From: a virus
Direction: 5' to 3' (one strand)
DNA: 36,048 bases
IMG/VR virus record: IMGVR_UViG_3300035145_003763
Coordinates: 1 to 36,048 of that record
A program made the translations under genes and the position numbers. The stretch's first letter is position 1; each line of letters opens with the position of its first letter. Shown here in pieces: positions 2,316-27,960 of the stretch. Under the pieces are notes generated by a model that ran no database searches, was not told the origin of the DNA, and worked only from the letters and a program-made list of their open reading frames with translations.

Positions 2316-5300
2316 ATGCCTATTAATACAAATTTAAACATCTCTCCATATTATGATGATTTTGATGTAGAGAACCAATTCTATAAAATCATGTTTAAAC
2401 CGGCTTTTGCGGTTCAAGCAAGGGAATTGACGCAACTACAATCAATCTTGCAAAATCAGATTGAACAGTTTGGTGACAATATTTACAAAGAAGGTTCTAT
2501 CATTAAAGGTAGTAACTTTACAGAAATACAAGGCTTAAAGTTTGTTAAACTACAAGACGGTGTTGCTACAAACTTTGACCCTACTCTTTATATCAGCGGT
2601 GAAGTAACTGAGTCAATTAGTGGGGCTGACACTGTAGTAGATGTTGTTTATAAAGCAACTGGTTCCGACACAAACTTGTCTGCAAAAATCATTAGTGCTG
2701 AACGTGGTTTCCAAACAAGACCGCCAAATCTTAATACGTTCTTTATCACTTATTTGACTACAAACGAAGATACAGCAACACCTGCAAATACAGTTAAAGC
2801 ATTTGATCGTGGTGAAACTCTAACAATTACTAGAGAAAAATTCGTAGGAGGTAATCCTCACCCAACAGAACCAGGTCCGACTGTTGTTGCGACAATCAAC
2901 GTGACTGACCAAACAGCAGAAACCGGTTCTTCTTATGGTATTCAGTCGTCTCCTGGTATTATTTTTCAAAAAGGTCATTTTCTTTTTACTGCTCCACAAA
3001 TACTTATTGTAGACAAATATTCAAATGAGCCAGATGGAGTATCGGTTGGATATACGGTAACAGAAGAACTTATTTCTTATTTACAAGATCCGTCTTTGTA
3101 TGATAATGCAATTGGTTCTGTAAACCAAAACGCACCTGGCGCGGATAGACTTAAACTAACACCAACCCTTACAGCATTAAATACAATATTAGCAGATACT
3201 TCCGAAGACTTCTTTACTCTCATTCGTTATCAAAACGGGAATGCAGTTGCCTTAAGAGATATTGCTCAATTTAACGTTCTTGGTGAAGAATTTGCTCGCC
3301 GTACGTATGAAGAGTCAGGAAACTATATTGTAGATAAATTTGATGTACGCACAGATCGTAGAGGTACAGATTTACAAGTATTAGTTGGCCCAGGTAAAGC
3401 ATACGTTAAAGGATATAGAGTTGAAAATTTAGGTGAAAGAGATTTTACTATTCCTGATATTACTTCAACCACAGTTCAGGAAAATACGTCAGTATCATTT
3501 AACTATGGATCTTATATTGCCGTAACAGGACACGCAGGTACTCTTGATATTGACGGTACCCAAGCAAATCTACAAACAAGTGGCGGTGCAAACATAGGTA
3601 CTGCTTTTGTCAAAAACATCTTTGCAGATAAAGTATATCTTTATGGTATAAAGATGACAGGCTCGAATAGCTTTGCTAACGTAGAAAGAATATCAACAGG
3701 ATCAGGCCATGTTACAATTGCCGCAGGATCTACGCTTCAAGATGTTAGAAAGGCACCACTTATTTTTGACAGCGGTGTATTTAGCACAAAAAGTATTTCT
3801 GATATTGCTGTACCGATTAGAGAAAAGATTACAGGAGTTAATGCTTCAACTTCTGCGTTTACTCTAACTTCAGGAGTAGGATACGATTTTCCAGCAGGAA
3901 TGGCTGCAGGTGATATTCTTGTTATTGATAACAACAACCAACAATTCCCAGTATCAGGCTCAATTGCTTATTCGGTGAACAACTCACAAATTGACTTTAG
4001 CGTAACTGGTGTACCTGTAAACCCTTGTACTGTGTACGTTGATAAAAGAGATGAAGTTGCAACGCCTCATCCAAAATTATCCGTATCACCATATATTAAG
4101 GTTACTTATGCAGGCGGTACTATAAAGTATTCATTAGGTTTCCCTGACGTTTATAATATCAGACAAATTGTTGACTCGGCCGGTGATGACGTAACGAATA
4201 GTTTCCGTCTAAAGACAAACCAAAAAGATACTTATTATGATATTTCATATATGGAATTTATTCCAAATAGGCCTGAACCGGCTACAGGGCAAATGACAAT
4301 TTTACTTGACGTTTATCAATGCGACGGTGGTACAGGAATTAACTTCTTCACTGTTGACAGTTACCCAGTAGACGACACATCTGCAACCCTCGGCGCAGGA
4401 AGCATACGTTCAAATTCTATTCCTGTTTATCAAGGAACAAATGGTCGTAAATATAACTTAAGAGAATGTATTGATTTTAGGCCGCACGTAGATCCTGATG
4501 CAGCAGCAGATTATACCGCAACAAGCGCAGGCGCTGCTCCTGTAATTAGCGGAACGGTTGATGATCCTAATATTACTTTTGCGGATACGCCTCCACTAAC
4601 ACCTGCTCTAAACAGAGCAGCAACAGTTGATATTGAAAACTATTTAGCAAGAATTGATTTGGTTACAATTGATTCTTATGGCCGCTTTTCATTGCTTGTA
4701 GGAACTGAAGATGATGTACCAGCTCCGCCAAAAGTTCCCGCGGACAGAATGGTTATATCACAAATTGGTATCCCAGGCTTTCCTGCATTAACTCCAAGAG
4801 AAGCGCAACAGCAAGGTAAAAATCCATATGCAGTTAGTGTAAGCTCTAAGGGTATTGAAAACTATACTATGAAAGAGATTAATGATCTTGAGAAACGTAT
4901 TGATGCACTTGAATATTATACACAACTCAATCAACTCGAACAAGATACACTTAATTTGCAAATTCTTGACACAAATGGATTGACAAGATTTAAGAATGGG
5001 TATATAGTTGATCCATTTAGAAATCTTAATCTTGCAAATGTTGAGAATAATGACTTCTTAGCTTCTGTACCTTTTGATAGAGAAATTTTACAACCTGCTT
5101 TAAGAACATTCCCTATTGATCTTAAATTCAAATCATCAACGAATGCCACGATTTTCCCAGATACAAATATAGCGACAGCAGCAACGCTTGCGCGTAATGC
5201 TCATGCTTCGTTTATTAAACAAGACTACGCAACAAGATCAAGAAATTGTGTAAGTAACTTTTATAGCTATGTAGGTCTTGGAGAATTATCACCAGACCAC

Positions 5301-7682
5301 GATAATGTTCATGATACAATTGGCGACCCAGTTACTTTAAGTGCTGACTTTTTAGATCCATTCCAAAACTTTCTTGACAACTTACAGCAATTTGTTCCTT
5401 TAACCGGTACAACCGTAACAAGAACAAACAGAGTAGAAACAACAACTCGTAGAACTCTTGCCCTTACAGGTGAAGAAACAAAAACAACAAGTGGTGAATT
5501 TGTTTCAAACGTTAACTTTTCACCATTTGCTCGCTCAAGAGAAGTTAAAATTTATCTTTCTGGCCTACGTCCTAATACTCGCCATTATTTCTTCTTTGAT
5601 AAAGTGGATGTTAATGCAAATGTATATCCAGGAGCTGGCGGTGATGAAGCTCGAGAAGTAGCAAGATACGGTGCCGCAGGCGCTGCTGTTTTATCAGACG
5701 CAAACGGTGTTTTAAGAGCGGTATTTGTAATCCCAGCGGAAACATTCTTTGTCGGTGATAGAATGCTTGAGGTTGTTGACGTTAATGCGTATACTGATAT
5801 TGATTCTGCTTCAACTTCGTATGGTTCTCTTATGTACCATGCAGTTAATATTTCAGTAGAAAGAACTCATTTAACAATGTCAACTCGTATTCCTGAGTTT
5901 GGTGTTAATACAACTGTCACAGAGAGAAACCTTCCAAGACGGAGAAGAGAGCCCTCCCGTGATCGCGGTAGAAGAAGAGGTGATCCTTTATCACAAACAT
6001 TCTTTGTTAAAGAAGATATGACAAATGGCGATAACGCAGTTTATGCTTCAAAGGTTGACTTGTATTTTAGAAAAAAATCAACAACCAATGGGATTACCGT
6101 TATGCTAAGAGAAGTTGACAACGGTTATCCTGCTCCTGAAATTATTCCGTTCTCGCAAGTTCATTTATTGCCTTCACAAGTAAATATATCGGAAGATGCA
6201 AGTCAAGTAACAACAGTTGACTTTAAAGCACCTGTACGTTTAGATGCAAACAAAGAATATGCAATTGTTGTCATGCCAGACGCAAACGATCCTGATTATT
6301 TAATCTTTACTTCAAAGGTGGGTGAAGATAATATTGTTGCTGGGTCAGAACTCGGTCAAGCAGTTGTTCAAGACTGGGGTGACGGTGTTTTGTTTACGTC
6401 AACAAACAATCGTGCATGGAAATCTTATCAAGATGAAGATCTTAAATTTAATTTATACCGTCATGTATTTAGTAGCAATAGTGGATCCGTTACGTTTGAA
6501 GCGTCAAATATGGAATTCTTTACACTATCCGCTTATTCTGGCGCCTTTAACGTAGGTGAAAAAGTTTATGCACAACGTGCGCTTTCAGGTAGTACATCTG
6601 CAAACGTATTTGCATCAATTGGTTCTGACCAAGTTACAGGTACCGCATTAGATGATACTTATACGGCTGGCGATCAAATTATTCTTACAGACTCATCCAA
6701 TACATATAAAGATATATTTACAATTGCGTCCGTTGAAGGTGCAGCTTCAATGACATTAGAAAATCAGGTTTGGTTTGCTGTTTCAAATGGTACCTCATAT
6801 CCAATTACAATGGGAGAGTGCTTGTATCACAATCCACGAGAGCCTGAGAAGCTTTATTTGAAAAACAGTAATGCCACCGGAGTAGATATATTTGCAGCAT
6901 CAAACAACCTGACAGGGCTTGACAGCGGCACTACAGGCACTATTAGCACTGTTGATAATATCACAATTGGATATATCCAGCCTAAAATTACAAAAGCAAC
7001 AGACACAATTACATCAACAGGTATAAGTGGAAGGTTTGTTGACTCTAATAACGTATTGGCAAGTTATAATTTGCCTATGAAGTTTGCAGATAATAATTTC
7101 TTTAATAGAAAAGGTAATATAGTTTACAGTAAATCAAACGATGTTGGCGGAACACAACCGTTTGAGATTACGGTAACAATGGATAACGGCACGTCTGCAT
7201 ATGTTTCACCGTTTGTTGATTTAGAAACCGCAACTCTAATCGCATATCAATACAGAGTTTCAAATAGTTCAACAACTACTTCAAAATACATATCGAAAAC
7301 TGTTGAACTCGCAGAAAACCTTGATGCCGAAGATATGAATGTCATAATGACGGCGTACAGACCGACTGCTACTGATATTAAGTGTTATATAAAACCTCAA
7401 AACTATATGGACTCGTCTTCGTTTGATTCTTGTCCTTGGATTGAATTGGAATTGTTTGAAGGCGTCAATCAATTCTGCTCGGATATAAACATAAACGATT
7501 ATCGTGAGTTTAAATTTAGAGTTCCTGATTCAGCAAAAGACGGGAACGATGTTATTCAATATACTTCAGGCGCAGGACAGTTCCAAGGTTATAGAAAATT
7601 TGCAATTAAAATTGAGTTGCTTTCGGATAATACATATAGAGTTCCAACTGTAAGTGATTATAGAGGAATTGCACTAACATGA
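2316..7682 (+). CDS. DUF4815-type tail/baseplate structural protein
   Basis: This 1788-aa protein opens with NISPYYDDFD, then FKPAFAVQARELTQLQSILQ and a FGDNIYKEGSII block. This is the start typical of DUF4815 proteins encoded beside baseplate genes in T4-like marine phages. Residues 852-885 form a coiled-coil segment (EINDLEKRIDALEYYTQLNQ), followed by RFKNGYIVDPF. Residues 1208-1221 are a run of nine arginines in fourteen positions. The region after it (DPLSQTFFV, KVDLYFRKK, REVDNGYPAPEI) matches a beta domain shared by phage tail proteins. I saw no catalytic motif. An AAGGA ribosome site overlaps the gp8 stop. The stop overlaps the start of the next small gene. A structural role at the baseplate periphery is inferred from the family and position; its exact location in the tail is unknown. 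Confidence 0.8.
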   Translation: MPINTNLNISPYYDDFDVENQFYKIMFKPAFAVQARELTQLQSILQNQIEQFGDNIYKEGSIIKGSNFTEIQGLKFVKLQDGVATNFDPTLYISGEVTESISGADTVVDVVYKATGSDTNLSAKIISAERGFQTRPPNLNTFFITYLTTNEDTATPANTVKAFDRGETLTITREKFVGGNPHPTEPGPTVVATINVTDQTAETGSSYGIQSSPGIIFQKGHFLFTAPQILIVDKYSNEPDGVSVGYTVTEELISYLQDPSLYDNAIGSVNQNAPGADRLKLTPTLTALNTILADTSEDFFTLIRYQNGNAVALRDIAQFNVLGEEFARRTYEESGNYIVDKFDVRTDRRGTDLQVLVGPGKAYVKGYRVENLGERDFTIPDITSTTVQENTSVSFNYGSYIAVTGHAGTLDIDGTQANLQTSGGANIGTAFVKNIFADKVYLYGIKMTGSNSFANVERISTGSGHVTIAAGSTLQDVRKAPLIFDSGVFSTKSISDIAVPIREKITGVNASTSAFTLTSGVGYDFPAGMAAGDILVIDNNNQQFPVSGSIAYSVNNSQIDFSVTGVPVNPCTVYVDKRDEVATPHPKLSVSPYIKVTYAGGTIKYSLGFPDVYNIRQIVDSAGDDVTNSFRLKTNQKDTYYDISYMEFIPNRPEPATGQMTILLDVYQCDGGTGINFFTVDSYPVDDTSATLGAGSIRSNSIPVYQGTNGRKYNLRECIDFRPHVDPDAAADYTATSAGAAPVISGTVDDPNITFADTPPLTPALNRAATVDIENYLARIDLVTIDSYGRFSLLVGTEDDVPAPPKVPADRMVISQIGIPGFPALTPREAQQQGKNPYAVSVSSKGIENYTMKEINDLEKRIDALEYYTQLNQLEQDTLNLQILDTNGLTRFKNGYIVDPFRNLNLANVENNDFLASVPFDREILQPALRTFPIDLKFKSSTNATIFPDTNIATAATLARNAHASFIKQDYATRSRNCVSNFYSYVGLGELSPDHDNVHDTIGDPVTLSADFLDPFQNFLDNLQQFVPLTGTTVTRTNRVETTTRRTLALTGEETKTTSGEFVSNVNFSPFARSREVKIYLSGLRPNTRHYFFFDKVDVNANVYPGAGGDEAREVARYGAAGAAVLSDANGVLRAVFVIPAETFFVGDRMLEVVDVNAYTDIDSASTSYGSLMYHAVNISVERTHLTMSTRIPEFGVNTTVTERNLPRRRREPSRDRGRRRGDPLSQTFFVKEDMTNGDNAVYASKVDLYFRKKSTTNGITVMLREVDNGYPAPEIIPFSQVHLLPSQVNISEDASQVTTVDFKAPVRLDANKEYAIVVMPDANDPDYLIFTSKVGEDNIVAGSELGQAVVQDWGDGVLFTSTNNRAWKSYQDEDLKFNLYRHVFSSNSGSVTFEASNMEFFTLSAYSGAFNVGEKVYAQRALSGSTSANVFASIGSDQVTGTALDDTYTAGDQIILTDSSNTYKDIFTIASVEGAASMTLENQVWFAVSNGTSYPITMGECLYHNPREPEKLYLKNSNATGVDIFAASNNLTGLDSGTTGTISTVDNITIGYIQPKITKATDTITSTGISGRFVDSNNVLASYNLPMKFADNNFFNRKGNIVYSKSNDVGGTQPFEITVTMDNGTSAYVSPFVDLETATLIAYQYRVSNSSTTTSKYISKTVELAENLDAEDMNVIMTAYRPTATDIKCYIKPQNYMDSSSFDSCPWIELELFEGVNQFCSDININDYREFKFRVPDSAKDGNDVIQYTSGAGQFQGYRKFAIKIELLSDNTYRVPTVSDYRGIALT

Positions 7683-7859: not shown

Positions 7860-8720
7860 ATGGCAAAACCAAGTTTACAAAATATTGTTGTCAGTAATAC
7901 ATTCCAAAGTTGGTTTGACAAAACAAATGAATTAGTAGATTTATTTAAATCGGATGCGATTACAGCCTCTGCAACCGGTGATAGTACAACTGGTGATGCA
8001 ACTCTTGTCGGAGATTTTACAGCAGACAATCTTTTAGCAACAACTCAGGTAAGAACAAACGGCTTAGCCGCATATACAGGCGGTGGATCAATTAGCAGTA
8101 CTTCTCCTATCAATATTACAACTTCTTCACAAGAAGTTGTTCAAACATATACATATTCAGCCGCAGGCCCTCTTGTTCGTTGGTCTGACGGAACTACATC
8201 TTGGGATGTAGGAATTGATAATACAACAGATCTTAACTTTATTATTGACACTGGTACAGGCGTTACAAGATTTATTTTATCACCAGCAGGAACACTTACA
8301 GTCCCAAATTTAATAACGGTTGAAGACGTTACTGTAGGAGAGGATTTAACTGTTGGTGGTACGATGACTGTAGGCGACCTTGTGGCAAACAATGTGTTTG
8401 CTATAGGTGAAGTTACAACAGCATATAGTGGTTCAGATTTGAAACTTAAAGAAAACCTTGAAGTAATTACCGATGCTGTTGAAAAAGTATCTCAAATTAA
8501 TGGATACACATTTAACTATAAAGGAAAATCCGAACTTGCGACGGGTGTGGTAGCGCAAGAAATCGAAAAAGTTCTTCCAGGTATAGTTTACGATGCAACA
8601 AACGAAAACGGCGAAACGTATAAAGCTGTTCGGTATGGAAACATCGTAGGCCTTCTCATTGAGGCAATTAAGGAACTCAGCCAAGAAGTGGAAAAACTAA
8701 AAGATGGTGCTTCAGACTAG
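7860..8720 (+). CDS. Short fibre protein with C-terminal peptidase S74 chaperone domain
   Basis: In this 286-aa protein, residues 1-190 are Thr/Gly/Val-rich beta sequence with short repeats (VEDVTVGEDLTVGGTMTVGD), as in trimeric fibre shafts. From residue 192 comes an intramolecular chaperone of the S74 family: SDLKLKEN, then TGVVAQEIEKVLPGIV and VRYGNIVGLLIEAIKEL. In S74 proteins the Ser and a Lys five residues later form the self-cleavage dyad. Here they are S192 and K197, so release of the last 95 residues after trimer folding is expected. It begins two bases after the 59-aa gene, and its last 17 bases overlap the Gly-rich gene. The N-terminal 30 residues (QNIVVSNTFQSWFDKTNELV) probably attach to the baseplate, which is inference. 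Confidence 0.85.
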   Translation: MAKPSLQNIVVSNTFQSWFDKTNELVDLFKSDAITASATGDSTTGDATLVGDFTADNLLATTQVRTNGLAAYTGGGSISSTSPINITTSSQEVVQTYTYSAAGPLVRWSDGTTSWDVGIDNTTDLNFIIDTGTGVTRFILSPAGTLTVPNLITVEDVTVGEDLTVGGTMTVGDLVANNVFAIGEVTTAYSGSDLKLKENLEVITDAVEKVSQINGYTFNYKGKSELATGVVAQEIEKVLPGIVYDATNENGETYKAVRYGNIVGLLIEAIKELSQEVEKLKDGASD

Positions 8721-9510
8721 CGGACCGATAAGTCTATCAGATATTCAAGGCGAATTCTTAGGTAGTAATCCGATAAGTATATCGGAATATTATCGAGGTG
8801 GATTATATGTGCCTGAAGCTGCTATTAATGCAAACATTCCAACATCAGGTACAATTTCTTTATCCGACTTTTACGGAACTTCTCGAGCTGTTGACTTACA
8901 AGCTAAACTTGTAGGCGGCGGCGGTGGTGGTGGAGCAGGAAGGCCTATTGATAACTTCTATACCATCAACTATAATAACGCAAATTCCGGACAAACAAGT
9001 TCAACTACTATCCTTAAAGCTGATGGAAACAACGAAGGTCTTACTGGCGGTGGCGGCGGTGGCGGCGCTGCAGGTGGATCGAGTACTACAACAGGTACTG
9101 CAGGAGGTGCGTCGATTTTTGCAAACGGCGGTGCCGGTGGAGCACCAAATGAGCCAAATACGAACGCAATCTCGAACGCCGCAGGCGCCGGAGGGGGTGC
9201 TGGCACTAAAGGATCTGGTGGTGGCGGTGGTGGAGGAAACTCGGATAACTATTGTTTCGCGACTGACGGAAATGGAGGCAGTGGCGGCGGTGCAGGGAGT
9301 AGTCAAGAATTTAATGGATTGGTTGCATATGGATCAACTTTACCTTGGACATTAGGAGCAAGAGGTAACGGTGGGGCTAATAACAATCAGGCTGGCGGAG
9401 TGGGTGGTGCAGGTGGTCCAGGTTATGTCGAATACATTTATGATGGTGTAACGTATGCATACACAGCCGGAAATAATAATTCAACTGGTAATCATGTGGT
9501 AACAAATTAA
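8704..9510 (+). CDS. Glycine-rich tail protein, candidate receptor-binding adhesin
   Basis: This is a 268-aa protein. The first 65 residues hold two related short segments, GPISLSDIQGEF...ISEYYRGG and SGTISLSDFYGTS, a pattern common at the start of small phage tail proteins. From about residue 69 it becomes strongly glycine-rich, with five separate Gly clusters divided by Asn/Ser/Thr-rich stretches, ending in GGPGYVEYIYDGVTYAY. Gly clusters separated by variable loops recall the tip adhesin gp38 of T2/S16-type phages, which folds as a polyglycine-II sandwich; direct homology is not shown. The gene starts inside the S74 fibre gene (17-base overlap), and its stop shares a base with the next ATG (TAATG), so it is translationally coupled on both sides. 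A cell-surface binding role is inference. It could instead be a structural filler protein. Confidence 0.65.
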   Translation: MVLQTSGPISLSDIQGEFLGSNPISISEYYRGGLYVPEAAINANIPTSGTISLSDFYGTSRAVDLQAKLVGGGGGGGAGRPIDNFYTINYNNANSGQTSSTTILKADGNNEGLTGGGGGGGAAGGSSTTTGTAGGASIFANGGAGGAPNEPNTNAISNAAGAGGGAGTKGSGGGGGGGNSDNYCFATDGNGGSGGGAGSSQEFNGLVAYGSTLPWTLGARGNGGANNNQAGGVGGAGGPGYVEYIYDGVTYAYTAGNNNSTGNHVVTN

Positions 9511-10319
9511 TGACAAATAGAATTGATACTTTTAAATTAATAATGGATCAGGTAGCCGAAAAAGGCTCAATAGTTATTAATGACTCTATTTATGAAAAAA
9601 TGTTTGCAATAGGAATTCGTAAAGGAGACGCAGAAAAAACATGGGGATATGCTTTGCATGATGCAAATCAAACTCATATGGAAAAAATATTAATTGATAA
9701 TGGTAGAACTGCTCCTACTTATTTAATGTCTTGGTGGGAAGAATTTGCTGTAACATCAGATTGCTATCTAGGTATTGATTCAAGAACTTTTAATAATTCA
9801 GAAGAAATTGTTTTTGGTATTACAGGCCGTGAAAGTTTCAATGAAGTTTTAAGTATGTTTGATAAGTGGAAACAAGATGATGGTACACTCGTAGGAACAG
9901 ATCTTACGATTGCAGAAATTTTACGTGGCGGTGGATTTAAATTAACTTTTAATACTACTCTTAATAGATTTAATTATATTAAAGCATTTAGTAAAAGATG
10001 GAGATTTGAAGACGGCCAACACGTAACGACCAATTACACTTGGAGTATTGATGAAAACGATAACTTAACTTTGATAAAGTCACAAGACTGTATAAATCAA
10101 AGAGCCAAGTTTCCTAATGCACCTAACCCAGCTGTTTGCGGTGATAGATTTATTAATGAATGGAATACAGCTGTAACCATATATAATGGAATATTTGATA
10201 ATGTTATGATGACTCCTAAATTTTTAGAAAGAACAACACACATACACGGATTTTTCTTTGTGTTTATTACAGAAAGAGTAGATGTTGAACGGACTCCTTT
10301 ATTTCCTCCGTTATCATAA
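9510..10319 (+). CDS. Unrecognised protein, 269 aa, last gene of the gp8 operon
   Basis: I do not recognise this protein. It is not repetitive and looks globular and mixed alpha/beta. Tryptophans are frequent (TWGYALHD, MSWWEEF, DKWKQDD, KRWRFED, NYTWSID). There are three cysteines (DCYLG, QDCINQ, AVCGDRF) and a C-terminal block HIHGFFFVFITERVDVERTP that may be a buried strand. No signal peptide or clear membrane helix is present. Its ATG overlaps the stop of the Gly-rich gene (TAATG), so it is co-translated with that protein, and it ends 77 bases before the giant gene. Base use is like its neighbours. By position it may be a partner or cap of the adhesin or a minor tail component. Neither is shown by sequence. 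Confidence 0.6.
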   Translation: MTNRIDTFKLIMDQVAEKGSIVINDSIYEKMFAIGIRKGDAEKTWGYALHDANQTHMEKILIDNGRTAPTYLMSWWEEFAVTSDCYLGIDSRTFNNSEEIVFGITGRESFNEVLSMFDKWKQDDGTLVGTDLTIAEILRGGGFKLTFNTTLNRFNYIKAFSKRWRFEDGQHVTTNYTWSIDENDNLTLIKSQDCINQRAKFPNAPNPAVCGDRFINEWNTAVTIYNGIFDNVMMTPKFLERTTHIHGFFFVFITERVDVERTPLFPPLS

Positions 10320-10396: not shown

Positions 10397-13300
10397 ATGT
10401 CAAAAATTTCAGAACTCGGTCCAATAACCGGTGCCAATACGCGGACAGAAGATCTCTTCGTTATCGTCAACCTAATTCAAGGGGATGACGGTACAAAGAA
10501 CATCACAAGGGCCGAACTTGTACAAGCCTTACAATATGAAATCTTTGATAGAATTACGATCACTGGTGGTCTAATATCTGGTGTAACAATTTTCGACTCA
10601 AATGGTAGAAATCTTCTAATCACAGAGTCGCAGTTTAATACTGGGACCCTTGATAGTAACACCTTAACAAACTCTAATATATTAACTGCTACCGCAAACA
10701 ATATAACCATGACAAACTCAGTTATTACAAGTTCTGAGTTTAATAATGGTACTGGTAATAATGACGTATTTACGTTCTCAAGAATTGATTACTCTGACTT
10801 TTCCAACGGTACAGGTAATAATAACGTCTTTACAAATTCTCGTATTGACAACTCAGAATATAATAACGTCACAATTGAACAAGGTACTGCAAACGGTCTT
10901 ATCCTTACGAACATTTCTATTGATGAACTTATTCTTGAAGATGCTTTCATCTCGAATAGTGAAATCATTACAACGTCTTTCGCCAATGGTTCAATTTCAA
11001 ACAGCACAATCATTAATACAGATCTCGACGACGTTGATATTACAAACTCAAGATTCTCAAACGGTCAAATTTGGGATACCGCGGTAAGTAACTCTACAAT
11101 TACCGCAACAGACTTTAGCAATGGTACAGGTAACAATAATATCTTTACCAATACAACAATTGACCAAGGAATTATTATTAACTCCGTAGCGAATAACATT
11201 GTTATTACTTCTTCTGAATTTAATGACGGTACGGCAAATAATATAAACATTGTAAATTCCGACTTTTCCGATGGAACTGGAAACAATAACGTATTTACAA
11301 ACACAACAATTCAAGATGGTACTCTTGATAATAACGTAATTACTAATTCATCGTTCCAAGGTTCAATGGAAGATGTTGTTGCTACAAATATGACAATCAC
11401 AAGCTCTACCTCTCAAGGTATGGCAATCTCAAACAAGTCAAGTTTTGTAGACGGCGTTATTCAAGACACAGAACTTTCTAACACAACAATTGAAGATTCT
11501 AAACTTGTTGACTTTGACATGGAGCTGCATAAAGTATGGCAGCCAAACATGGATGAAGATAGCTACTTTGCAATCAAAAACTTTAAGACTGGTGATACAG
11601 AACAAATTACATATCGCCAATTCTTTGATGAAATTTCTAAATCAACAGAAAAAGCTCTTAAAGTCCACGTTGCCGTTGATGGCGATGACAACAACCCAGG
11701 TACATTACTTAAGCCTGTTAAAACTCTTGCTCGAGCATCTCAACTTGCAATTGAAAAAGCTGGTGGTGTAACAGATCGTAACGCACTTAACAGCGCTGTA
11801 CACATTTCAGTTGGCCCAGGAACATATTATGTGGATGATCCAATTGTTCTTCCTGATGATTGTTCTATGACTTCAACTGCAGGACAGTACGCAACAGTTA
11901 TTGAAAAGAAACCTGGATATGAAAGAACAAACGGTGTTCTTGTTGGTTCAGGTTGTTATGTTCAAGGTTTTGCATATATGAACTTTGAAGTTGATAACTT
12001 TGATTACCCTGAAGGTGGTTTTGCTGTGGCATATCGCCCAGGTGCATTGCTTCGCCGTTCTCCATATATTCGTGACTCCTCTCAGTTGTCAAACTTTAAC
12101 CGTCTTGACGTTGAACCACCTCTTAATCCATTTAACTCAAAAGGTACAATCGCTGACCTTGGTCAAGAATTCTATATGGTAGCAGGTCACTCAACCCAAG
12201 CTAACTTTGCAATTGATGATGAAGTTACTTTCTCATCTGGTGCGTCTGGTTTTATTTCATACATTGCGGACATTGACTCAAACTCACAAATTTACGTAAG
12301 AAACTTAAAAGGTAATGTTGAGCCAGGTGATATGCTTTATGCTGAGTCCGGTGGAACAGCAACAATTGATAGACTTGGTATTGACGACTTCCCTAACAGA
12401 CTTGTAGGTCGTGGCGGCGGATGTATGCTTGCTGATCGTCGAGTACTAGACCCTGACTCACTTTATACTTACGTACTATGTTTTGGTTTTACACCTCGTA
12501 CTCAAAACGGTATGGGTTATGTGGCAAGAGATGGTGCCGGTGTTAACGGTATTGGTTCATTGTCAATCTTTGTTCGTACTGCGTTCTATGCGTTGAACGG
12601 CGGACAAATGACCTTGAACAACTCAGGTACTCAGTTTGGTGACATCTCAATGCGCGCAAAAGGTTCAACTGCGGTATTTACACCAGCCGAAACAAGTGCT
12701 ACTTTGTTCTCAAATACAACATTTGCTGATATTATTCTTGATAACAAAGAAGAAATTGTTGAAGATATGGTAGTCTACCTAACAGCAAATACTGCAAATG
12801 GTGGTTTGAATTATCAAGGTTATGATGCAGCAAAATGCTTTAGAGATACAGGAATTATTGTTGATAGTGTTGGATATGATGTTGCTCTTAATACTAACTA
12901 TTGGGGCCGCTTAAACGGTATTGCATACGAAAGTCCAATTTCATACGTTGTTAAAAACGAGCAACAAACTGAAACGCTTGGGGCAAACCAACATCTTAAA
13001 TCAGAAATTAACAGACTATTTGCAAATGCAAATACTGAAGTATTAACTCGAGCAAATAGATCTCTTGATGAAACACTAAGCATACTTGACAATTCTGAGT
13101 CATATGCCTCTGATATTATTTGGCAAGATACAGGAAATGTTGCAAGAACAGCGGCTCGTGAATTAATTCAAGATAACCGTGATTTGATTATTAACGGTAT
13201 GATAGATTGGATTGATAATAACGATGAATTCTTCTCATATGACAGCAAAAAATGTCGTAGAGATATGCAAGAATATATTTTGCCTGCCGTTAAATGGGAT

Positions 13301-16300
13301 TCATTACTTGACACAAACTACAACTCAAATATTGCAGGTCAAGCATACTATTTCAAACAATCAGCAACAGTAGCAGATAAACAAAGAAATGAAACTGTTG
13401 CCACATTTGAAAAATTACGTAAAGTTACAGATGAACTTGTAGAAGCAAACTCTGCATTGATGGCAGAAAGATCGTTTGACAAGTTTAGCACAATTATTGA
13501 TATTCTTGATAATACAAGAACAACTAAATTTAGCCCAACCAAAGCAACTTACGAACCTGATACAGGAAGAATGGTTATCACAATTGGTAATCACACATTA
13601 CAAAAAGGTCAATTCGTAACTTTTGCTGAAGAGGCATTTACGTTTACTTGTACTTCAGATAATAACGTAATGGAAATTAAACACCCAAGAAGATCTGATA
13701 CAAAGAACTTTAATAAAGCATTACCAATTGAACACGTATCAGCAAAAACAATTACTGTGAACGCAGGTACAACTGGTGCAAACTTTGCTCATACATTTGT
13801 ATCCGCAAAACCAAAATCAGTATCCGTTCTTGGTGAAGTTATGACATTCTCTGATAGCCCATTACTTGACGGCGATAAAAAGAATGCAAGAAAACAACTT
13901 CAAGCAAATAAAGAATATATTCAAGACTATATGGAAGCTTGGGCTGACAACGAATGGTTCTTTTATGACAGTGATAAATGTCAAAGAGATACAACTCAGT
14001 ACATTATGCCTGCCGTTCAAAGAGACTTGTTGTTAGGTACGAACTTTAACGCTCTTCAAACAGGTATTGCTTATCGTACAAAATCAGGCGAAGTTTCAGT
14101 TACAGATCAACTTGAACAAACCGTTGGTGCAGTTAACTTTATGAAATCGTCAGCTGCTACAACTGCGGCAGGAAACTCAATTGCTGTTGATAGATTAAAC
14201 GACTCATTTGACGAAATCACAGGATTGTTGAATAACTATGGTAAAAAATATACTCCGACTAATGCGACATATAATCCACAAACTGGTGTAACAGTTCTTA
14301 CACTCGGAGACCACGATTTTGACATTGGTGATCATATTTACCTTGAGCCATTCAGCCTTATATTTACCTGCGCTCTTGACGGTAACGTAACAGAACATGG
14401 TTACCCAGCAACTACATTTACTGATTATACTCCAACTGATGCGTCATACGATCCTGCTTCAGGCGTATTCACAGCAACAATTGGTACACACAATCTTCAA
14501 GCAGGAGACAAGGTTGAATTTAAAGATGGCGCCGTAACATTTACATGTGCGCTTGACGGTAATACAACAAACCACCCTGCACCTGAGTCCCATCACCCAT
14601 TCTTTAGAAAACAAGTTGAGATTACTTCCGTAACATCAACAACAATTACTATGAATGTTGGTGCTGCAACTGATGGCGGTGGAACACATACATTTGTAAG
14701 CGCATTAGCAGACGGTATTCGTGCAGAACGTCAACACCCTGCATATAAAAAGCCAATCGTTATTTCTGATAGAACTGCAACCACGATTACAATTAATGTT
14801 GGTGAGTCAAGTGATACTTCAACACATACTTTTGTACGTGCTGATACTAATGCGGTTCGTGAGGCTGCGGATCCATGGTTAGGTCGCTATACTCCACAAA
14901 ATGTTATCTATGACCCAGTTAATGGTGATATGGAAATCTTTATTGGCTCACACACTCTTCCTGTTGGTAAATGGATCTCAATTGATCCTGAGTCAATTAC
15001 GTTATCTTGTGCAAATACATCAGCAAATACAACTGTTGAATTAACACACCCAAGACGTAAAGAAAAACCGCATGATGAACCAATTCGTATTCATGCTGTA
15101 ACTGCAACCTCAATTACAGTAAACGTTGGAAACGCAAACGGTTATACTGAGCCACATACTTTTGTATCAGCTACAAAAGGCTGTATCAATGCCCACGCGG
15201 TAAAACATACAGATGCCGCTAAATTCGTTAAAGCATTTACACCTACAACCTCTACTTATGACCCAGGTACAGGTATTATGAATATCACGATTGCGGACCA
15301 CGGTCTTAACCAAGGCGATCATATTCAAATCATGCCACTTGGTATTACATTTAGTTGTGTTAATACGGCAACCTCTGATACGGTTGAAATCTCACACCCA
15401 AGATTAGGTGAGCCACTTTACGAACATCCTATTGAAATTACAGCTGTAACTACTAACACTATTACAGTTAATGCAGGTACCGCAGGCGGTTACGGCGGAA
15501 CTCATACATTTGTAAGAGCTGACGAAGGATCGGTTATGCAAGTATCTGCGTCAGAGCAAGGTACATACGCTTCAAGACAAATTAAAAAGAATAAGAAATT
15601 TATTCAAGAAGAAGTCAAAGCGTATCTTAACGATAACTACTTCATTTACGAAGATGCAAAATGTCGCCGTGATACAGGATATATTCTTGACGCGGTAAGA
15701 AGAGACGTTGCGACGGGATCTAATCTTAACGCCGTAATGACAGGTATGGCATATAGATCTGGTACCGTGGGATCTGATGTTGTTATTAACGATCAGCTTA
15801 CAGAAACCGTCGGTTCAATTACATGGCTGAAAGGTGAAATCGCGTCTGACGTATTAACAGATGCAACAGCAATTTCTCGCTCAAACGCAGCATTTGACGA
15901 AATCATTGATATTATGCAAAACGGCAATGCCAATGCAGACACAATTGATTTTGGTACATACTCAATATCTCAAGAAGCGTTTAATGCGCGCAATGCGTTG
16001 CAAGAAAACAAAGCATTTATTCAAGCTGAAACAATTGCTTGGATCAAACAGAAATATCCAAACTTCGGATACAATGTTGATGCATGTAAGAGGGACTTAG
16101 GATACTTTATTGATACTGTATCTTGGGATATTCAACATGGCTCAACAGCGGCAACGGTAAATAACACAAGACTGTATTTTGAAAATGGTCTATCCGTTCT
16201 TGATGATGCAGAAATCGTTCCAACATCTGAATCATATAAGTTTATTGCAGGATTGGTTTCACGCATTATTAATGGTATTGACTGCATGGAGTATCAAGCA

Positions 16301-19300
16301 GTTGAAGCGCAAGTCTACGGAGAATACACATACTATACTCCGTCAAACGCAACTTACGATCCTGTCACAGGTGTAATGGAAGTAACAATTGGTACTCACG
16401 GGTTTGCGGTAGGAGATCGTATCTCAATTGACCCAGGTGGAATTACGTTTAGCTGTGGCTTTGGTGGCGGCGGTACTGACTCGCATCCAAACACAAACGA
16501 TCCAAACTACAAAGGTCAGTTTATTATTACTGCAATTTCAGGAACATCAATTACAGTTAATGCAGGTGCTGCAAACGGATACCAAGGAGCTCATACTTTC
16601 GTATCAGCAACAGCGGATTGTATTAGACCTGCAAATATGGCGGAAGCATATACACCAACCAATGTTGTATACGATCACGTCACCGGTGTTATGGAAATGA
16701 CCTTAGGTGAACGCCATAGTTTCGTAGCAGGAGATTATATCATCTTTGATGAGAATGCAATTACATTGTCTTGCCCAACGTCGCCGTCGGATCCAACACC
16801 AATTAATATTTCACATCCTCGCCCAACAGATCCAATTTATAACAAGCCAGTTAAAGTTGACTCTGTAACATCAACAACAGTTACTCTTCAAGTTGGTGAG
16901 GCAAAAGTTGATAAAGTTCATACTTTCGTATCAGCAACAACTAATGGTGTACGTCGTGCGGTTAATCCAACAATTGCAACAAAAGCATATGATCTGTTTG
17001 ATAACATTGGATTGCAAATCCGTAATAACAACGGTGCAGCAACAAGAGCAGAAGTTGAAATTGAGCCAACATTAACTTCCGATTATAACTCAACTGTTAT
17101 CGCAGACGCACAAGGTATTTTGGGTAATAAACAAAAGTATCAAGAAGACATTATTGAATTTATTAGAGATAACTATAACGGTCTTTCTTATAATATTTCA
17201 AAATGCAACAGGGATGTTGGTTATATTCTTGACGCAATTGATGAAGATATTGAATACGGCGGTAACGCTGCAACTATCAATGCAGCAAACTTCTACTTCG
17301 AAGCCACCACAAGGGGCGCAGGTAGCCTTTCTGATAATTCGCCGATCTCCGTTAACGTATTGCCAGAAGAACAAAGAGCACCTACAAAAGCTGCATTTTC
17401 TCACTTGGCTGATGTAGTTCAACTTGTAGTTAGAGGACAAACAGTTACTCCAACAACAGGCAATACCGTAGATCAAAATACATCTTTGACCGCTGCAGAT
17501 CTTGCAACTGGTAACCGTGCACATGATCTTATTGAAATTATTGCACAAGGCGTAGATGATTATTCTTCTGGTAAATTGCCTGCGGTTTCTGGTGCTCCTA
17601 TTATGCCGCCGTCAAGAACTTTTGCAAGAAAATCATTGGAGAAAAACCGTAAATGGTTCCAAGAAGAAATCGTTCGTTTTGTAGATAAAGAACACTTTAC
17701 TTTTGATGAAAACAAATGCGCAAGAGATGCAGGATTTATTCTTGACGCTGTTCGCAGGGATGTTCAAACAGGTTCAACCTATAATGGCAAATATGTTGGT
17801 AAATCATATCGTATTGGTACCGTAGGTGCTGATAAAGTTATTGAAGAACAACTTGCCGAAACAATTGAAGGAATCCAATATATACAAAAAGACATCGAGG
17901 CATTATTATCCGGTGTGGCACTATCGCGCGCTCAGGTTTCCTTCAATAATATTATTAGATCCATGGTGGATGACTATACTCCTGACGGAACAAACTATGA
18001 CTACGGTTCCGGAAACCAAGGCGGCAACTACGTAAATGCAAGAAACGGTTTACAAATTAACAGAAACTTTATTCAAGCAGAAGCAACAGCTTGGGTAAAC
18101 GTTAATTATCCTACTCTTGATTACTCAGAAGCAAAATGTCAAAGAGACACAGGTATTATGGTAGATGCGGTTTGTTACGACATTCAGCACGGATCAAATA
18201 CCGCAATGAGAGACGTAGCGAAACTTTATTTTGAGAACGGTCTATCTACATTGTCAGCAGATCAAAGGGCTCCAACCGCAGCTCTGTATACTCACCTTGG
18301 AGAAATTTGTGAAGACATTTTGAACAAAGTAACAATCACACCTTCAACTGGTAACGGTGTTGCACAGGATACTGGATTTGGTCCTGTAGCTGCAGCAATT
18401 GGCATTGCACAAAAAGATTTGTGGAATATCGTTGAAGATGTAATTGCAGAAGACTCATTAATTAATATGCCTGATGTACGTGAAGCTCAATCAACATCGC
18501 TTAGCGCAGTTGCATACGATTATGATGCAGAAGCACAAATCATCGCAGATCGTACACCAACAATTCAAGCAAATATTACCGACTATCTGAAAACAACGTT
18601 TAACTTCCTTGAGTATGATAGAGAGCGTTGTTTCCGTGATACAGGTTATATCATTGATGCAGTTGCTCACGATATTCAATACGGTGGTAACTCAGGTACT
18701 GTTAATGCTGCAGGACTATATTTCAAAAATGCAGTTAACGTATTACCTTACGATCAACGAGTTTCAACAAGAAGAGCATTTACTCACTTGGCAAAACAAG
18801 TTGAGAAAATTACAAGAGCAGAACCTGTTGGATATAAATTAGGTAACAAATGGACTCCACACGCAGCAAATTATGATCCTGCGTCAGGAATGCTTGATAT
18901 GACATTAGGTGGAGACTTTACTCCATTGAACGGTGATGAACAAGCAAAAATGTCAGCAACAAGCGCAACATATAACCCAGCAACTGGTGAGTCAGTAATT
19001 ACTGTTGCGGATGCTTCAACTATCTCTGCAGGCGATTTGATTATTCTTGCAGATAACAGCTTAACCTTTACTTGTACTCAAGACGGTAACGCAACTCAGC
19101 ATTCTTACCCAAGACCTACTGACCCAGCAAGCGGTACACCTTTGAGAGTATCAGCCTCTGATGCAACTACATTTACGGTTAATGTTGGCGCATCTGATAT
19201 TAACAGTCAATATGCTCACACATTTGTTTCAGCAACCGCCGATGGTATTACACATTATAATAATACCTCTGATTATGACTCGGCAACTGGTAACTTAAGA

Positions 19301-22300
19301 ATTAACATTGGTAACCACACATTAAAAATTGGTGACAAAATTGAAATTGCACCAGAAGGTATGACATTTAGTTGTGACTTTGACGAAAACAATACAACAC
19401 ATGCATATCCTCGTAAAAGAGTATATACACCAAAGACAGGTACAACTTACGATCCGACGTCAGGTGATATGGTATTAACATTGCTTGATACTGAACAATT
19501 TACTCCTGCTGCAGGTACAACTTACGATCCGTCAAATGGTAAAATGGTTGTTGAAATTGGTAACCATGATTTGAAAGTTGGTGAATATGTACACTTTGCG
19601 AATAACAGCTTAACCTTTACTTGTACTCAAGACAGTAACGTAACTCAGCATACATATCCAAGACCAGGTTCTGATCGTATTGTTGACTCGGCTGTTGTTA
19701 TTAGCGCAGTTACTGCAACAACATTTACAGTCAATGTAGGACCTTCACCAGAAGGACAACAATACGCCCACACATTTGTTTCAGCAACTTCTAATGCAGT
19801 AACAAAATCTCATAACCTTGAGAACGGTGAAAATGTATTGCTTGCACCTAACAGCATAAGATTTACTTGTGCACTTGATAGCCATGCAACTACACACTCT
19901 TATCCACAAATTGGACATCCTGCATATGATACACCTGTAGCGATTACAGCTCATACGCCAACAACAGTTACAGTTAATGTTGGTGGATACGCTGGCGGTA
20001 CTGCTCACATTTTTGTAGGAGCTGATGATAATGCCGTATCAAGTACAGATCCAATTTACGGTAAACGAACAGCAATTACTGCGGTAACAGATACATCTGT
20101 AACAATTAACGTAGGTGCATCACCGACAGGTTATCAACACGTACATACTTTTGTATCAGCACTTGCCGGCGCGGTTGCAACAGATCAGCATAACTTAAAA
20201 GTTGGCGATTATATCTTGATCCAACCGGAAAGCATGTCATTCACATGTGCTCAAGATAACTATGCAACAGTTCATGCTTATCCACAATCACATCACCCAG
20301 CATATGATACACCGGTCAAAATCCTTGAAGCGTCGCCAACAACAGTAAGAGTTGATGTTGGTAAAGCTCTTCCACCTAACAGCGGTGGAGTTCATCGTTT
20401 CGTAAGTGCAACAATTAACGCAATTGGTCATGTTATTGGTAACCCAATTAAACAAGATATGACAAACCTTGCAGCAAGAAGAGAAATTGCAGCAGAAGCA
20501 AAAGCACTTGCAATGATTATTGCGGATATTTCAGATGACAATAGCACGGATGCAATTCCGTTAGAAAGACCTCCATTGACAACTTGGATACAAGATGATA
20601 TTGTTGCATCTAAAGAAGCAATTGAAGATAGTATTCCAACTCTTGTAACTAACGTTATTAATTACATTACAGAAACTTGGAATGGTGCAAGTTATGCAAA
20701 ACAAAAATGTCGTAGAGACGTAGGTTCTATTATTGATGCGCTATCGCACGATATGAACTACAACACAAACTATGCAACAAGAATTGCTGCGCAACTATAC
20801 TTTGAATGGGGAGCAAGCGTACTGCCATTTGACCAACGTCAACAATCTGCTGACTTCTTCAAAGAAATGGCTGATGTTGTAGAAAATATCGTACAAGAAT
20901 TGCCTCTATACGAACAAGGATTTACAGCAACCGACGCATTCTATGATCCTGTTTCAGGTATGTTTACAGCAACACTTGGTGTAGGTCATGGATTTGAAAT
21001 CGGCGATTATGTAAACTTTGAGCCGAGCTCATTTACCTTCAGCTGTGACAACGGATCAGGACCGCAAAACCACTCTGTTCCTGAACCTGGTCACCCATAC
21101 TATAACAAGCCTTGTCAGATTACAATGGTAACAGCAGATAAGATTACCATGAACGTAGGAGACGGTGCAGGTTATACTGGTGCTCATACATTTGTTTCAG
21201 CAACTGAAGAAGGATTGAAACGAGCAATTAGAGTTCCATATACAACGCAAGATACTTCAGGTTCAGCCGCATCAGCAGTTGAAGGCGAACAAGTTGCAGA
21301 TCTTGTACGTATCATTGAAGACGCAATCAGAAGAAACAGCCTTGACGCAGTACCAAGATTGGTTGAGCCTGATACTTCTTGGGTTGATAGCTCAATGAGA
21401 TGGGCAGCGAAACAAATTGAAATGAATAAAGATGAATTGGCAGACGAAGTCATTGAGTTTATCAATTCAGAATTTAATACACTTGATTACGATAAAGCAA
21501 AATGTCGCAGAGATACAGGTTATCTTGTTGATGCGTTTAGTTATGACCTTAACTATGGCGGTAACTCAGCTTCTCGTTGGAACGCAGAGTTCTATTTCTG
21601 GAATAACATTTTCAGATTGCCTGAAGATCAGCGCATTCCAACTGCGGTATCATATCGTAAGCTTGGTGAAATTGCTCGTGACGTATTGCTCGAGAAATAC
21701 CCAGGTACAGTTATTAAAGGTGAATCAACAACCGAATACGAGGCAAACCGCGTCGCGGATTTGGCGAATATATATTACAGAACATTCCTTAACAAGGATG
21801 AAAAAGATCTTGGACCAACAATCTTGCCAGACTTTACTTGGGAAGATAACACAGAGTTTAAATTTGCGAGAGATATTCTTATTAACAACAAGAAAAAGCT
21901 TTCAACAGAAACAGTTAGATATGTTGGTGCACAATACAAGTTCTTTGATATTAACAAAACAAGAAGAGATGCAGGTAACTTGCTAACAGCATTGACTAAT
22001 GACTTTAGATTCTCAAATGTTGTCACACAACAAGACGGATCTCAAACTGCTATGAGAACATATGCAGCGGCATTCTTTGATTATCAAGGTCGTCATGTGT
22101 TCCCAGTATTTAACGCAACAACAGCAGGATTGAGTTTCCAAGGTACATTAGAAAACTTAACAGCACTATCAGCTATAACAGGTCAAAAACCAAATCATGC
22201 ATACATTGTTTCAACTGACTATACTGGCAACCGTTACGCCGGCGATATATATTATTGGAATGGAACAACATGGGTGAATGATGGAGCTAACAACACAGAC

Positions 22301-22763: not shown

Positions 22764-23219
22764 ATGTCATATACATCATATGTAGACTCAAATACAGGTA
22801 TCACGATTATCGTCACAACTCAGGCGCCCGATGCCCTGCCTATTGCCAAAAGTTTTGAGGTGACAACAAACTATAAAGAACTTATTACAGTTCCTCAGTT
22901 TAAAGTTCCTGAACTGGTATTCGGTGGGTCAACCACAATTGAACCGGGTGTTGGCGAGGTGATATCTCCACTTATTGTAACAAATAAAACAGCCTCAACC
23001 GCAAACATCGATGTAAAGATATATAGATTTGTAGAAAATACAAATTTTATGTTGATAAGTAATATGCCAGTCCCTGGATATGATACAATTCCGCTTCCAC
23101 TGAACGGGCAATTCTTTGCGTCAGGAGATACTCTTGAGATTAAATCTAGCGCAAATACAACTATTGATGCAACTATATCATTTACATTAGGTCAAGCGGA
23201 GGAATATGATGTCGACTAG
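22764..23219 (+). CDS. Small beta-rich structural protein, 151 aa
   Basis: I recognise no named family. The sequence is rich in short beta strands and polar residues, with a segment KTASTANIDVKIYRFVENTN, then DTIPLPLNGQFFASGDTLEI and a C-terminal strand TIDATISFTLGQAEEYDVD. It has no cysteine, signal peptide or helix-rich part, and the whole length looks like one or two beta sandwiches. It follows the giant gene by 19 bases (AAAGGA ribosome site) and its last 14 bases overlap the start of the collagen-like gene. It therefore sits between two long fibre genes and may be an adaptor or collar joining one of them to the tail. This role is inferred from size and position only. Confidence 0.65.
   Translation: MSYTSYVDSNTGITIIVTTQAPDALPIAKSFEVTTNYKELITVPQFKVPELVFGGSTTIEPGVGEVISPLIVTNKTASTANIDVKIYRFVENTNFMLISNMPVPGYDTIPLPLNGQFFASGDTLEIKSSANTTIDATISFTLGQAEEYDVD
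23198..23203 (+). promoter_or_regulatory. Strong ribosome binding site for the collagen-like gene
   Basis: GGAGGA lies inside the end of the 151-aa gene. Two in-frame ATGs follow at 23206 and 23209. The spacing to the second (5-6 bases) is more usual than to the first (2-3 bases), so the true start may be 23209, giving one Met fewer. Confidence 0.65.
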
Positions 23220-26200
23220 ATTTAAGACATTACGTGGGAAAACCGTTACCCTCGGTCATGGTATCCCACAATCATTTCCAATAGGATTGGATCCAGCCCC
23301 GTTTGAGGGCTCAATCGTATATGCCGATAATGGCACGATGAAATACTCAAACGGTACTCAATGGCAAGATATGGGTACTGGGCCGCAGGGTGTTCAAGGT
23401 AATCAGGGTACTCAAGGAGTCCAAGGCGTTCAAGGTGATTATGGTCCTGGTTTTACAATCATTGGATCAGTTGCTGATGTGGACTCGGGTGGTGACCCCC
23501 AGGCCACCTTAAATGCCGCCTTTCCATCTGCTAATATTGGCGAAGGTGTTATTGACCAAGCTGATGATGAGCTTTGGATTTATGACGGTACAAATTGGGT
23601 AAATATTGGATCTTTCCGTGGTGTCCAAGGTTTTCAAGGTACTGATGGCTCTCAAGGTGTTCAAGGTATTTTGGGTCAGGAAGGTATCCAAGGTACTAGA
23701 GGTTATCGTGGTTTCCAAGGCGTTCAAGGTTTACAAGGTCAACGTGGTATTCAAGGTATCCAAGGTGTTCAAGGTTTACAAGGCATTCAAGGTGTACAAG
23801 GACTTCAAGGCGTCCAAGGGTTACAAGGTGTTCAAGGTTTGCAAGGACTTCAAGGTGTCCAAGGTCCGCAAGCTTACCAAGGTGTCCAAGGTACTCAAGG
23901 TGATACAGGTTTTCAGGGTTTTCCTGGCGATGACTCAGGAATGGTTGTTCAATATAACGTATCTGAGCAATTTTCTGAAGCTAACCCAGGTTCAGGATTT
24001 ATGCGTTTCAATTCGCCTACGGCTGATACAGGATCATTTTCTGGCGCTACAAAAATTTGGATAAGTGAGTCTGACAGTTTTAATGTAGATCTTGCGAATT
24101 ATTTCGCTTCTATGGATACGTCAACTTCTGTAAATAAAGCATATATGAAAATCACATTGCGTGATAATCCTAGCAAATATATTATCTTTACAATTCAAGA
24201 TTTTACGGATGACGGCGTATATCAAGAACTCGACGTTACTTATGTTAACGGTGTAGGTGTTAAAGAAGATTTTGTTTACGAAGATTTACCTTCTAACCCA
24301 GGTACATATATTTCCCTACCTTGTATCGTTGCGTTTAGCGTATCAGGTGACCAAGGTATTCAAGGTGTACAAGGACCTCAAGCTTATCAAGGTGTTCAAG
24401 GTGTACAAGGCGTTCAGGGAGTGCAAGGTGTACAAGGACCTCAAGCTTATCAAGGTGTTCAGGGTGTTCAAGGAGTTCAAGGACACGTTGGTATTGATGG
24501 CGGTTTTTCTTTTGATTGGAACTTTGCGAATAACGTAATTGCTACAACGGATCCAGGCGCAAATAACTTCAAATTCAATAACCAAAACCCAGAACTTGCA
24601 ACAATTATTACGATTGATGATATTCCTGAAGATCAATTTTCAACAGAAATTGATGACTTCTTTGATTATCTTGACGCTGCTCCTGGCCCGCTTAAGGGTC
24701 ATATTGTTATTAAGAGCAGGGCATTAGGTGCAAGCGGAATTGGTGGCCACCATTATTCAATGTATGAAATCACTAATTTTACTTGGGATAGCGTAAGTCA
24801 AAACTGGGGTTGGTTTAACGTAAACTATATAGATGGTAACGTTACAAACTGGGATACACAAGTTAACGCAACCCACGGTCCAAGAACACACATTAGTTTT
24901 GTTCCACAAGGACCTATTGGTGTACAAGGTGTTCAAGGCCCGCAAGGGACAACAGGTATTCAAGGTTTAACTGGTATTCAAGGTACTCAGGGTGTTCAAG
25001 GTAATCAGGGTACTCAAGGAATTCAAGGAATTCAAGGAGTTCAGGGTTTACAAGGAACACAGGGTTTCCAAGGAATGCAAGGTACACAAGGAGTCCAAGG
25101 TGTACAAGGGGATGAAGGTCTTCAAGGTACTCAAGGTTTCCAAGGTCTTCAAGGTGATACCGGTTTACAAGGTGACGAAGGCCTTCAAGGTATTCAAGGT
25201 GTACAAGGTCCACAAGCTTATCAAGGTGTTCAAGGCGTTCAAGGATTACAAGGTCTTCAAGGTAATGAAGGTGCTCGTGAATTTACAGTTATTAATAACG
25301 GTGCATCAGATTATCAAATTGATGGCGTAAACGATCCACCCTTACACCTAATTCGCGGATTTACTTATATCTTTAACGTAAACGCGACAGGTCACCCATT
25401 TGAGATTAGAGTTTCAAATGGCGGTGCTCAATATAATACAGGTGTTACAAACAACGGTACTCAGAACGGACTGATTTATTTCCGTGTACCATATAACGCA
25501 CCTGCAACTCTTTATTATCAATGTACTATCCATGCTCAAATGGGTAATGTCATTTATACTTCGGATCTTGGCCCACAAGGTACTCAAGGCGTTCAAGGTG
25601 TACAAGGAGTTCAAGGATTACAAGGTGTACAAGGACTTCAAGGCGTCCAAGGTGTACAAGGACCACAGGCATTCCAAGGTGTTCAAGGTTCGTTAGGTCC
25701 TGCCGGTGAATTTGGTGGTATGACATTTGATTATACCTTTAGCACAGATACAAACGCAACAGACCCAGGTGTTGGTATTCTTAAATTCAACAATGCTAAC
25801 CTTGCTCTTGCAGGCGCACTTTATATTGACGACCGTGATGATAACTTTACAGATATTCAATCATTCTTACGTACTGTCGGAGATCCTACAAGTTCACCAA
25901 AAGGTCACTTAAGAGTTATTGATGGTATTACAACAAGTAACTACGTTGCGTATGAAATTAATACAGTTAACGAAAGTTCAGGATACTTCAGCTTAGGAGT
26001 TACTTTCCTAGCAGGATCTGTTACTTCGTTTCCAAACTCACGTGATGTTCGTATTACTTTTGCAAGAACTGGTGATCGCGGCTTCCAAGGTGTTCAAGGC
26101 GTGCAAGGTTTGCAGGGTACAACTGGTATCCAAGGCTTACAAGGTACTGACGGTGATGATGGGCTTCAAGGTATCCAAGGTGTTCAAGGTAATGAAGGTA

Positions 26201-27934: not shown

Positions 27935-27960
27935 AGAGGGGGCTATGTGCCCCCTTTCTT
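27935..27960 (+). terminator. Rho-independent terminator after the collagen-like gene
   Basis: GGGGGC at 27938-27943 pairs with GCCCCC at 27949-27954 across a TATGT loop. The stem extends by A-T, G-T and A-T pairs, and a T-rich tail (TTTCTTATTT) follows. It starts 23 bases after the stop codon and before the next late promoter. It is the only clear terminator I see in the window. Confidence 0.88.

Follow-up and report, generated by a model that had tools for sequence, protein, structure and literature searches.

A short S74-terminated tail fibre and the Gly-rich protein encoded behind it very likely form a gp38-type capped fibre tip in an uncultured phage lineage, with an exchangeable Gly-rich part and with a third protein serving as helper of the adhesin. 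Linkage of the genes in a survey of relatives, agreement with the layout of phage S16, a Rhizobium phage protein joining the N-terminal module to a Gp38 match, and divergence of the adhesin together make a receptor-binding cassette well supported. The window, i.e. the whole stretch of 36,048 bases analysed here, contains T4-like tail genes and several fibre genes. The features relevant for this study are:

675-2306: baseplate wedge protein (phrog_438)
2316-7682: 1788-aa protein, labelled gp10-like
7860..8720, + strand: short S74-terminated tail fibre gene, 286 aa (ORF; Peptidase_S74; tail PHROGs such as phrog_8215)
8433..8588, + strand: Peptidase_S74 intramolecular chaperone domain, 49.7 bits
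8704..8720, + strand: overlap of fibre and adhesin genes, 17 bases
8704..9510, + strand: Gly-rich tip protein (P0002, candidate adhesin), 268 aa
8704..8886, + strand: putative N-terminal docking module, residues 1-61 (phrog_30374, E 1.2e-9)
8914..9423, + strand: Gly-rich region, residues 71-240, with eight Gly-rich motifs
9508..9512, + strand: TAATG, coupling the adhesin stop to the start of the third gene
9510..10319, + strand: third gene (P0003), 269 aa, predicted ABBA (PT-barrel) fold
10397-22744: giant-family gene, 4115 aa, start MSKISEL

Gene layout and its occurrence in relatives

The overlapping trio had been proposed in a first-pass annotation, and its ORFs, coordinates, 17-base overlap and TAATG were all recovered in our analysis. 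The name gp10-like for the 1788-aa protein is our own and presumptive. The C-terminal S74 domain of the fibre lies above the curated cut-off of 22 bits, also in a second run (46.6 bits). The fibre would trimerise via this C-terminal chaperone, which is presumably cleaved off. According to one report, the fibres of S16, like those of T5, possess a C-terminal intramolecular chaperone that is removed by autoproteolysis (PMC7289586).

Several other tail genes were seen in the window. A second S74 fibre of 1568 aa with collagen-like Q-G repeats is encoded at positions 23206-27912. The 133-aa protein encoded 34 bases behind it (27947-28348) resembles L-shaped tail fibre assembly proteins (phrog_3304, E 2e-15). 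The 175-aa ORF at the start of the record (114-641) matches the C-terminal part of a subtilase (PF00082, E 1.8e-6) as well as tail fiber phrog_15006 (E 3.3e-34), and is perhaps a truncated protease-bearing tail protein.

The searches for related S74 fibres, one of which kept the best 80 of 186 matches, yielded 116 loci that contain a fibre ORF; 80 of these are distinct. The 74 distinct loci that had a stop within the locus, together with the window, gave 62 clusters at 95% identity. The group considered here comprises the 42 clusters with a motif near the fibre N-terminus, the window included; this rule left out L051, L103, and L127, although an adhesin is present in all three. Among the matches listed, the fibre in these 42 IMG/VR clusters was followed by a module protein in 20, directly by the next tail gene in 16, and by another gene in three, while the remaining three were too short (less than 300 bases left after the fibre), including L086, which has the start of an adhesin. 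In the 20 adhesin clusters, the module protein begins at -29 to +3 bases from the fibre, and in 14 of them the giant gene follows at a greater distance. In the 16 clusters lacking the adhesin, the fibre leads directly into this giant gene with its start MSKISEL. The latter start was seen directly after the fibre or after the cassette in many relatives.

The exact 17-base overlap recurs in 8 of the 42 clusters among the matches listed (window and L086 included) and, together with the preserved gene order, indicates that the arrangement is more than chance. A third ORF was present in all adhesin clusters with a sufficiently long locus (18 of 18 among the matches listed) and belonged to family A, the P0003 type, in nine, to families B and C in four each, and to another type in L106. 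The adhesin and the third gene therefore look like one insertable unit. L103, which is outside the group, has an adhesin but no third gene. An 'ANNVFA'-like stretch before the S74 domain is common to the adhesin-bearing fibres of the window's group; it was considered as a docking signature and set aside, since it may reflect ancestry only.

The N-terminal module and similarity to gp38-type tips

The first 63 aa of P0002 matched 131 of the 50,697 records in the 'phages' collection (E 0.01 or better). The module was described by our own HMM with 13 seeds, the window sequence among them. Gene context was retrieved for 25 of the 131 records. In 11 of these 25 (L008, L010-L014, L016, L019, L022, L024, and L026), the gene directly preceding the module gene, by overlap or at a distance of up to 3 bases, was annotated as tail fiber, S74, baseplate wedge, or receptor-recognizing. 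An annotated tail fiber gene also touches the module in L015, where the module itself carries no annotation. Within the stretches fetched for five Vibrio phage records (F86, 6E35.1a, KVP40, nt-1, and D479), no annotated tail gene was located near the module gene. In KVP40 and its relatives, the module is continued by Ser/Thr-rich repeats (L006, 5938-6531) in a gene away from annotated tail genes, and the protein of such fusions is named 'cell wall mannoprotein' in some records. Rhizobium phage IC12 (L028, 3821-6176) has two adjacent adhesin-size genes after a tail fiber gene, with the module on the second.

Scanning IMG/VR with ten modules gave at least 411 matches, of which the best 80 loci, comprising 69 distinct ones, were analysed. 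Among these best 80, an S74 ORF, called with an HMM built from the fibres of this study, directly precedes the module protein in 25 of the 66 distinct proteins whose upstream sequence spans at least 300 bases. The Gly content was at least 18% in 43 and lower in 25 of the 68 module proteins with a long enough remainder, again among the best 80 of 411. This survey and that of the S74 fibres are not fully independent, since the contigs of L086 and L089 recur among the 80 module loci (as L245 and L311). The module is joined to diverse C-termini: some are Gly-rich, and others carry Ser/Thr-rich repeats, FG-GAP (as annotated), or other sequences. In our reading, the module serves for docking at fibre tips, and the C-terminal part attached to it can be exchanged. 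By means of these approximately 61 residues, the Gly-rich protein would dock on the exposed fibre tip, and the Gly-rich domain would be presented to the host.

Gly makes up 60 of the 181 residues at positions 65-245 of P0002, as compared to 9.8% (1099 of 11214) across the 11 further ORFs of the window that were counted. The codons used in P0002 are mixed (GGT 29, GGA 21, GGC 17, and GGG 3), so this richness is not a simple DNA repeat. P0002 is 35-42% identical to 11 relatives, values inflated by Gly, and the Gly columns are kept throughout this set.

Phage S16 was used as a control. Its gp37 contains Peptidase_S74 (E 1.4e-11) and is followed, after a gap of 27 bases, by gp38 (PF05268, E 4e-73) and then by a holin gene. 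The assertion that a Gly-rich adhesin follows the fibre gene in S16-type phages therefore stands, and the layout seen in the window is the S16 layout, S74 included. The reported likeness was borne out as well: in both cases an S74-terminated fibre gene precedes that of a Gly-rich adhesin, which at 249 aa in S16 is close in length to P0002, and the rule that gave eight Gly-rich motifs in P0002 gave six in S16 gp38. The two systems differ in that the window genes overlap and another gene follows. S16 gp38 has Trp residues at positions 7, 20, and 36, whereas P0002 has a different N-terminal module devoid of Trp and a single Trp at position 215. The T2/S16 systems comprise a PF13884 fibre and an adhesin with PF21721 (Gp38_N) and PF05268; in contrast, P0002 matched neither of the latter two families, and its search against Pfam gave no match at all. 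The earlier remark that homology is not evident thus holds for gp38 but not for the N-terminal part with its many phage homologs.

Some connection to gp38 is provided by Rhizobium phages of the Pootjesviridae. In RHph_N34, an S74 fibre is followed by a module protein deposited as 'putative tail fiber adhesin', which gave a GP38 match of 25.9 bits (cut-off 25) over positions 60-118 of 218; the phiM9 score of 22.9 bits was below the cut-off. The RHph_N34 protein, with its window-type module, links the module to gp38, although weakly. The match was absent in L083, L106, L109, and four other relatives. RHph_N34, RHph_Y68, and RHph_I46 share with the window the same N-terminal module, an overlapping S74 fibre, and a next gene with a 1-base overlap. 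They differ in their third gene, which carries a tail fiber annotation, and, in N34, in the marginally GP38-like nature of the Gly-rich part. The initial proposal of a gp38-like receptor-binding cassette is supported by the S16 layout, the RHph_N34 link, and the adhesin divergence described below, but the docking domain is not that of gp38. In all likelihood, P0002 works like gp38 while not being a gp38 member by sequence.

Divergence of the adhesin between close relatives

The fibre of the window is 56-59% identical to those of L029, L030, and L032. Between L030 and L032, the adhesins share only 77% identity, as compared to 96% for the fibre and 99% for the third protein; overall, the gp10-like protein, the fibre, the third protein, and the start of the giant protein are 96-99% identical. 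The dS value was 0.80 for the adhesin and 0.05-0.20 for the other genes compared, making the former by far the most divergent of the five. At the DNA level, identity is 71-83% over positions 4800-5700 (adhesin), 91-100% before, and 95-100% over the third gene, and it falls again to 81-94% from position 6900, inside the giant gene. The adhesin is the strongest divergent stretch, not the only one. This suggests allele replacement. Positive selection was not seen in the adhesin, for which dN/dS was 0.15-0.21.

The loops between Gly clusters had been suggested as the variable, host-specific sites. This was not corroborated: the identity of non-Gly positions between L030 and L032 was 0.74 in the N-terminal module, 0.61 in the Gly-rich motifs, and 0.73 in the loops, and in none of the three pairs formed by L029, L030, and L032 were the loops more variable than other non-Gly positions. 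In these relatives, Gly is retained, and the remaining residues of module, motifs, and loops vary to a similar degree.

The Gly-rich part may be exchanged in various ways, with relatives possessing divergent alleles, a whole inserted domain, or no cassette. The adhesin of L077 contains approximately 133 extra aa within the N-terminal module relative to that of L076, while the fibres of both are 95% identical. By eye, these extra residues (L077, 4914-6428) are similar to a segment inserted into the Gly-rich region of the L079 adhesin. The L076 adhesin (4914-6344) has extra C-terminal residues; Pfam gave no match, and we take this end to be like lectin-type (LamG) domains. The 580-aa adhesin of L083 (4893-6635) appears by eye to combine two Gly-rich domains of different type.

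The AlphaFold2 model of P0002 was poor (pLDDT 57.5; 104 of 268 residues below 50), with low confidence through the Gly region. Regarding a polyglycine-II sandwich, the top VIA match of this model, the Bxb1 tail tip (9d93_Qb), had a Z of only 4.1, too weak for use. A Foldseek search of PDB for the Gly-rich fold gave nothing significant, and sequence searches of PDB with P0002, P0003, or their profiles revealed no credible relative. According to PMC6851490, S16 gp38 was also modelled poorly in CASP13, so the low confidence is weak evidence for disorder. It is highly improbable that P0002 acts as a disordered spacer and takes no part in receptor binding, as this low confidence might suggest; the conserved Gly columns, the divergence of its gene between relatives, and the marginal GP38 match of a module homolog speak against this.

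The third protein and its probable role

Single-sequence searches with P0003 were blank, but it is not an orphan: syntenic homologs surfaced in L029, L030, L032, L076, L079, L083, L085, L087, and L089 when the search started from the S74 fibre. There was no credible family match for P0003, only two unnamed PHROGs at E 0.001-0.002. Of the 247 stretches in genome_contigs that matched a pattern, none encodes a relative, and the search of named phages with the L085 homolog gave no match at E 1. The comparison with predicted viral structures yielded none at E 0.001 or better, the best being at 1.1e-3 and the next, A0A1D7SG87 of Cyanophage S-RIM44, at 4.9e-3. Families A, B, and C showed no demonstrable homology to each other; hhalign aligned only a 21-column C-terminal stretch of A5/A6 (E 0.051, probability 1%).

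The AlphaFold2 model of P0003, based on an alignment of ten sequences, was better (pLDDT 83.8, pTM 0.81) and displays five strand pairs, four with preceding helices. In this predicted model, P0003 has the form of a ten-stranded alpha-beta-beta-alpha barrel. The first 28 PDB rows from Foldseek were aromatic prenyltransferases, and all 50 matches listed by VIA-align were ABBA prenyltransferases (Z 9.5-11.6, 216-242 residues aligned). PatF was the top match among those listed (Z 11.6, 227 aligned), which also include the peptide-acting PagF, LimF, and KgpF. For a few rows, such as PatF, AmbP3, and CdpNPT, the assignment to the ABBA prenyltransferases does not come from the title.

The third protein most likely folds or modifies the adhesin and does not bind the receptor. 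Its adjacency to the adhesin gene, the TAATG coupling, and its conservation point to a helper of the adhesin. We see about an even chance that it is a chaperone without catalytic activity that assists assembly of the Gly-rich tip, with the job that gp25 of cyanophage Pam3, an unrelated protein, performs for gp24. Besides adjacency, coupling, and the conservation of the third protein while the adhesin diverges, this agrees with the fact that three third-gene families lacking a detectable relationship follow different adhesin groups. Precedents are described in two reports: Pam3 gp25 is the chaperone for the Gly-rich fibre gp24 and is encoded beside it (PMC9608196), and V22 gp27 is likewise encoded beside its fibre (PMC7289586). 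Pam3 gp24/gp25 resembles the window in having a Gly-rich distal domain and a separately encoded helper; in contrast, gp24 is a single fibre protein that forms trimers and has a baseplate end of its own, and P0003 has no Tfa-type match. Neither P0003 nor any of the ten family members matched Tfa-type or other fibre-assembly chaperone families in Pfam and NCBIfam, and the fold matches among those listed are enzymes, which speaks against a chaperone.

The 269-aa protein had initially been included among the receptor-binding components. Its gene sits between two tail genes, as would suit a second receptor-binding or tip protein, but this role is unlikely for a predicted compact ABBA barrel that is 99% identical between relatives whose adhesins are only 77% identical. 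Conservation of P0003 while the adhesin diverges makes a helper likelier than a receptor binder.

Rather improbable, too, is a peptide prenyltransferase-like enzyme adding an isoprenoid to the adhesin or the fibre. The uniformly ABBA-type PDB matches, with PatF as the best and peptide-acting enzymes among those listed, favour it, as do basic residues at positions 144, 158, and 237 in all ten P0003 family sequences. However, a fold shared with prenyltransferases is no proof of function, and the best match, PatF, is itself not known to be active. None of the ten family members matched prenyltransferase families in Pfam or NCBIfam. The hhalign score of the P0003 profile against seven TIGR04445 proteins, one of them incomplete, was 14.8, which falls among the scores of 60 column shuffles (median 13.0, maximum 22.6); these proteins came from a search of 24 cyanobacterial genomes, four of which had a match over the cut-off. 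According to one study, EpzP binds diphosphate through R49, K117, R232, and K283 (PMC3485228). Comparing strands by eye with this text, R37 of P0003 lies on strand 1 in 7 of 10 sequences, but strands 4, 8, and 10, where K117, R232, and K283 are placed, carry no conserved basic residue; the conserved set of P0003 differs from that of EpzP. P0003 is therefore like PatF, PagF, and EpzP in its predicted barrel, which spans residues ~1-255, and unlike them in that no sequence relationship was detected and the canonical diphosphate residues are not evident. Very doubtful is the broader idea that tail-tip adhesins of this T4-like lineage are matured by a prenyltransferase-derived ABBA-barrel protein that adds or binds an isoprenoid, so that receptor binding would depend on lipid modification. 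No literature plainly linking the ABBA prenyltransferase fold with a phage tail-fibre adhesin was found in one open-licence library.

The cassette extends the S16 design, an S74 fibre with a Gly-rich cap, to a docking module that is widespread in phages, with 131 records in a single collection. If the predicted fold of P0003 is right, an ABBA-barrel protein adjoins a tail-fibre adhesin. In this uncultured phage lineage, the gene that diverges between close relatives is now marked. Joined to very different C-termini, the module would offer phages a plug-in means of recognizing hosts.
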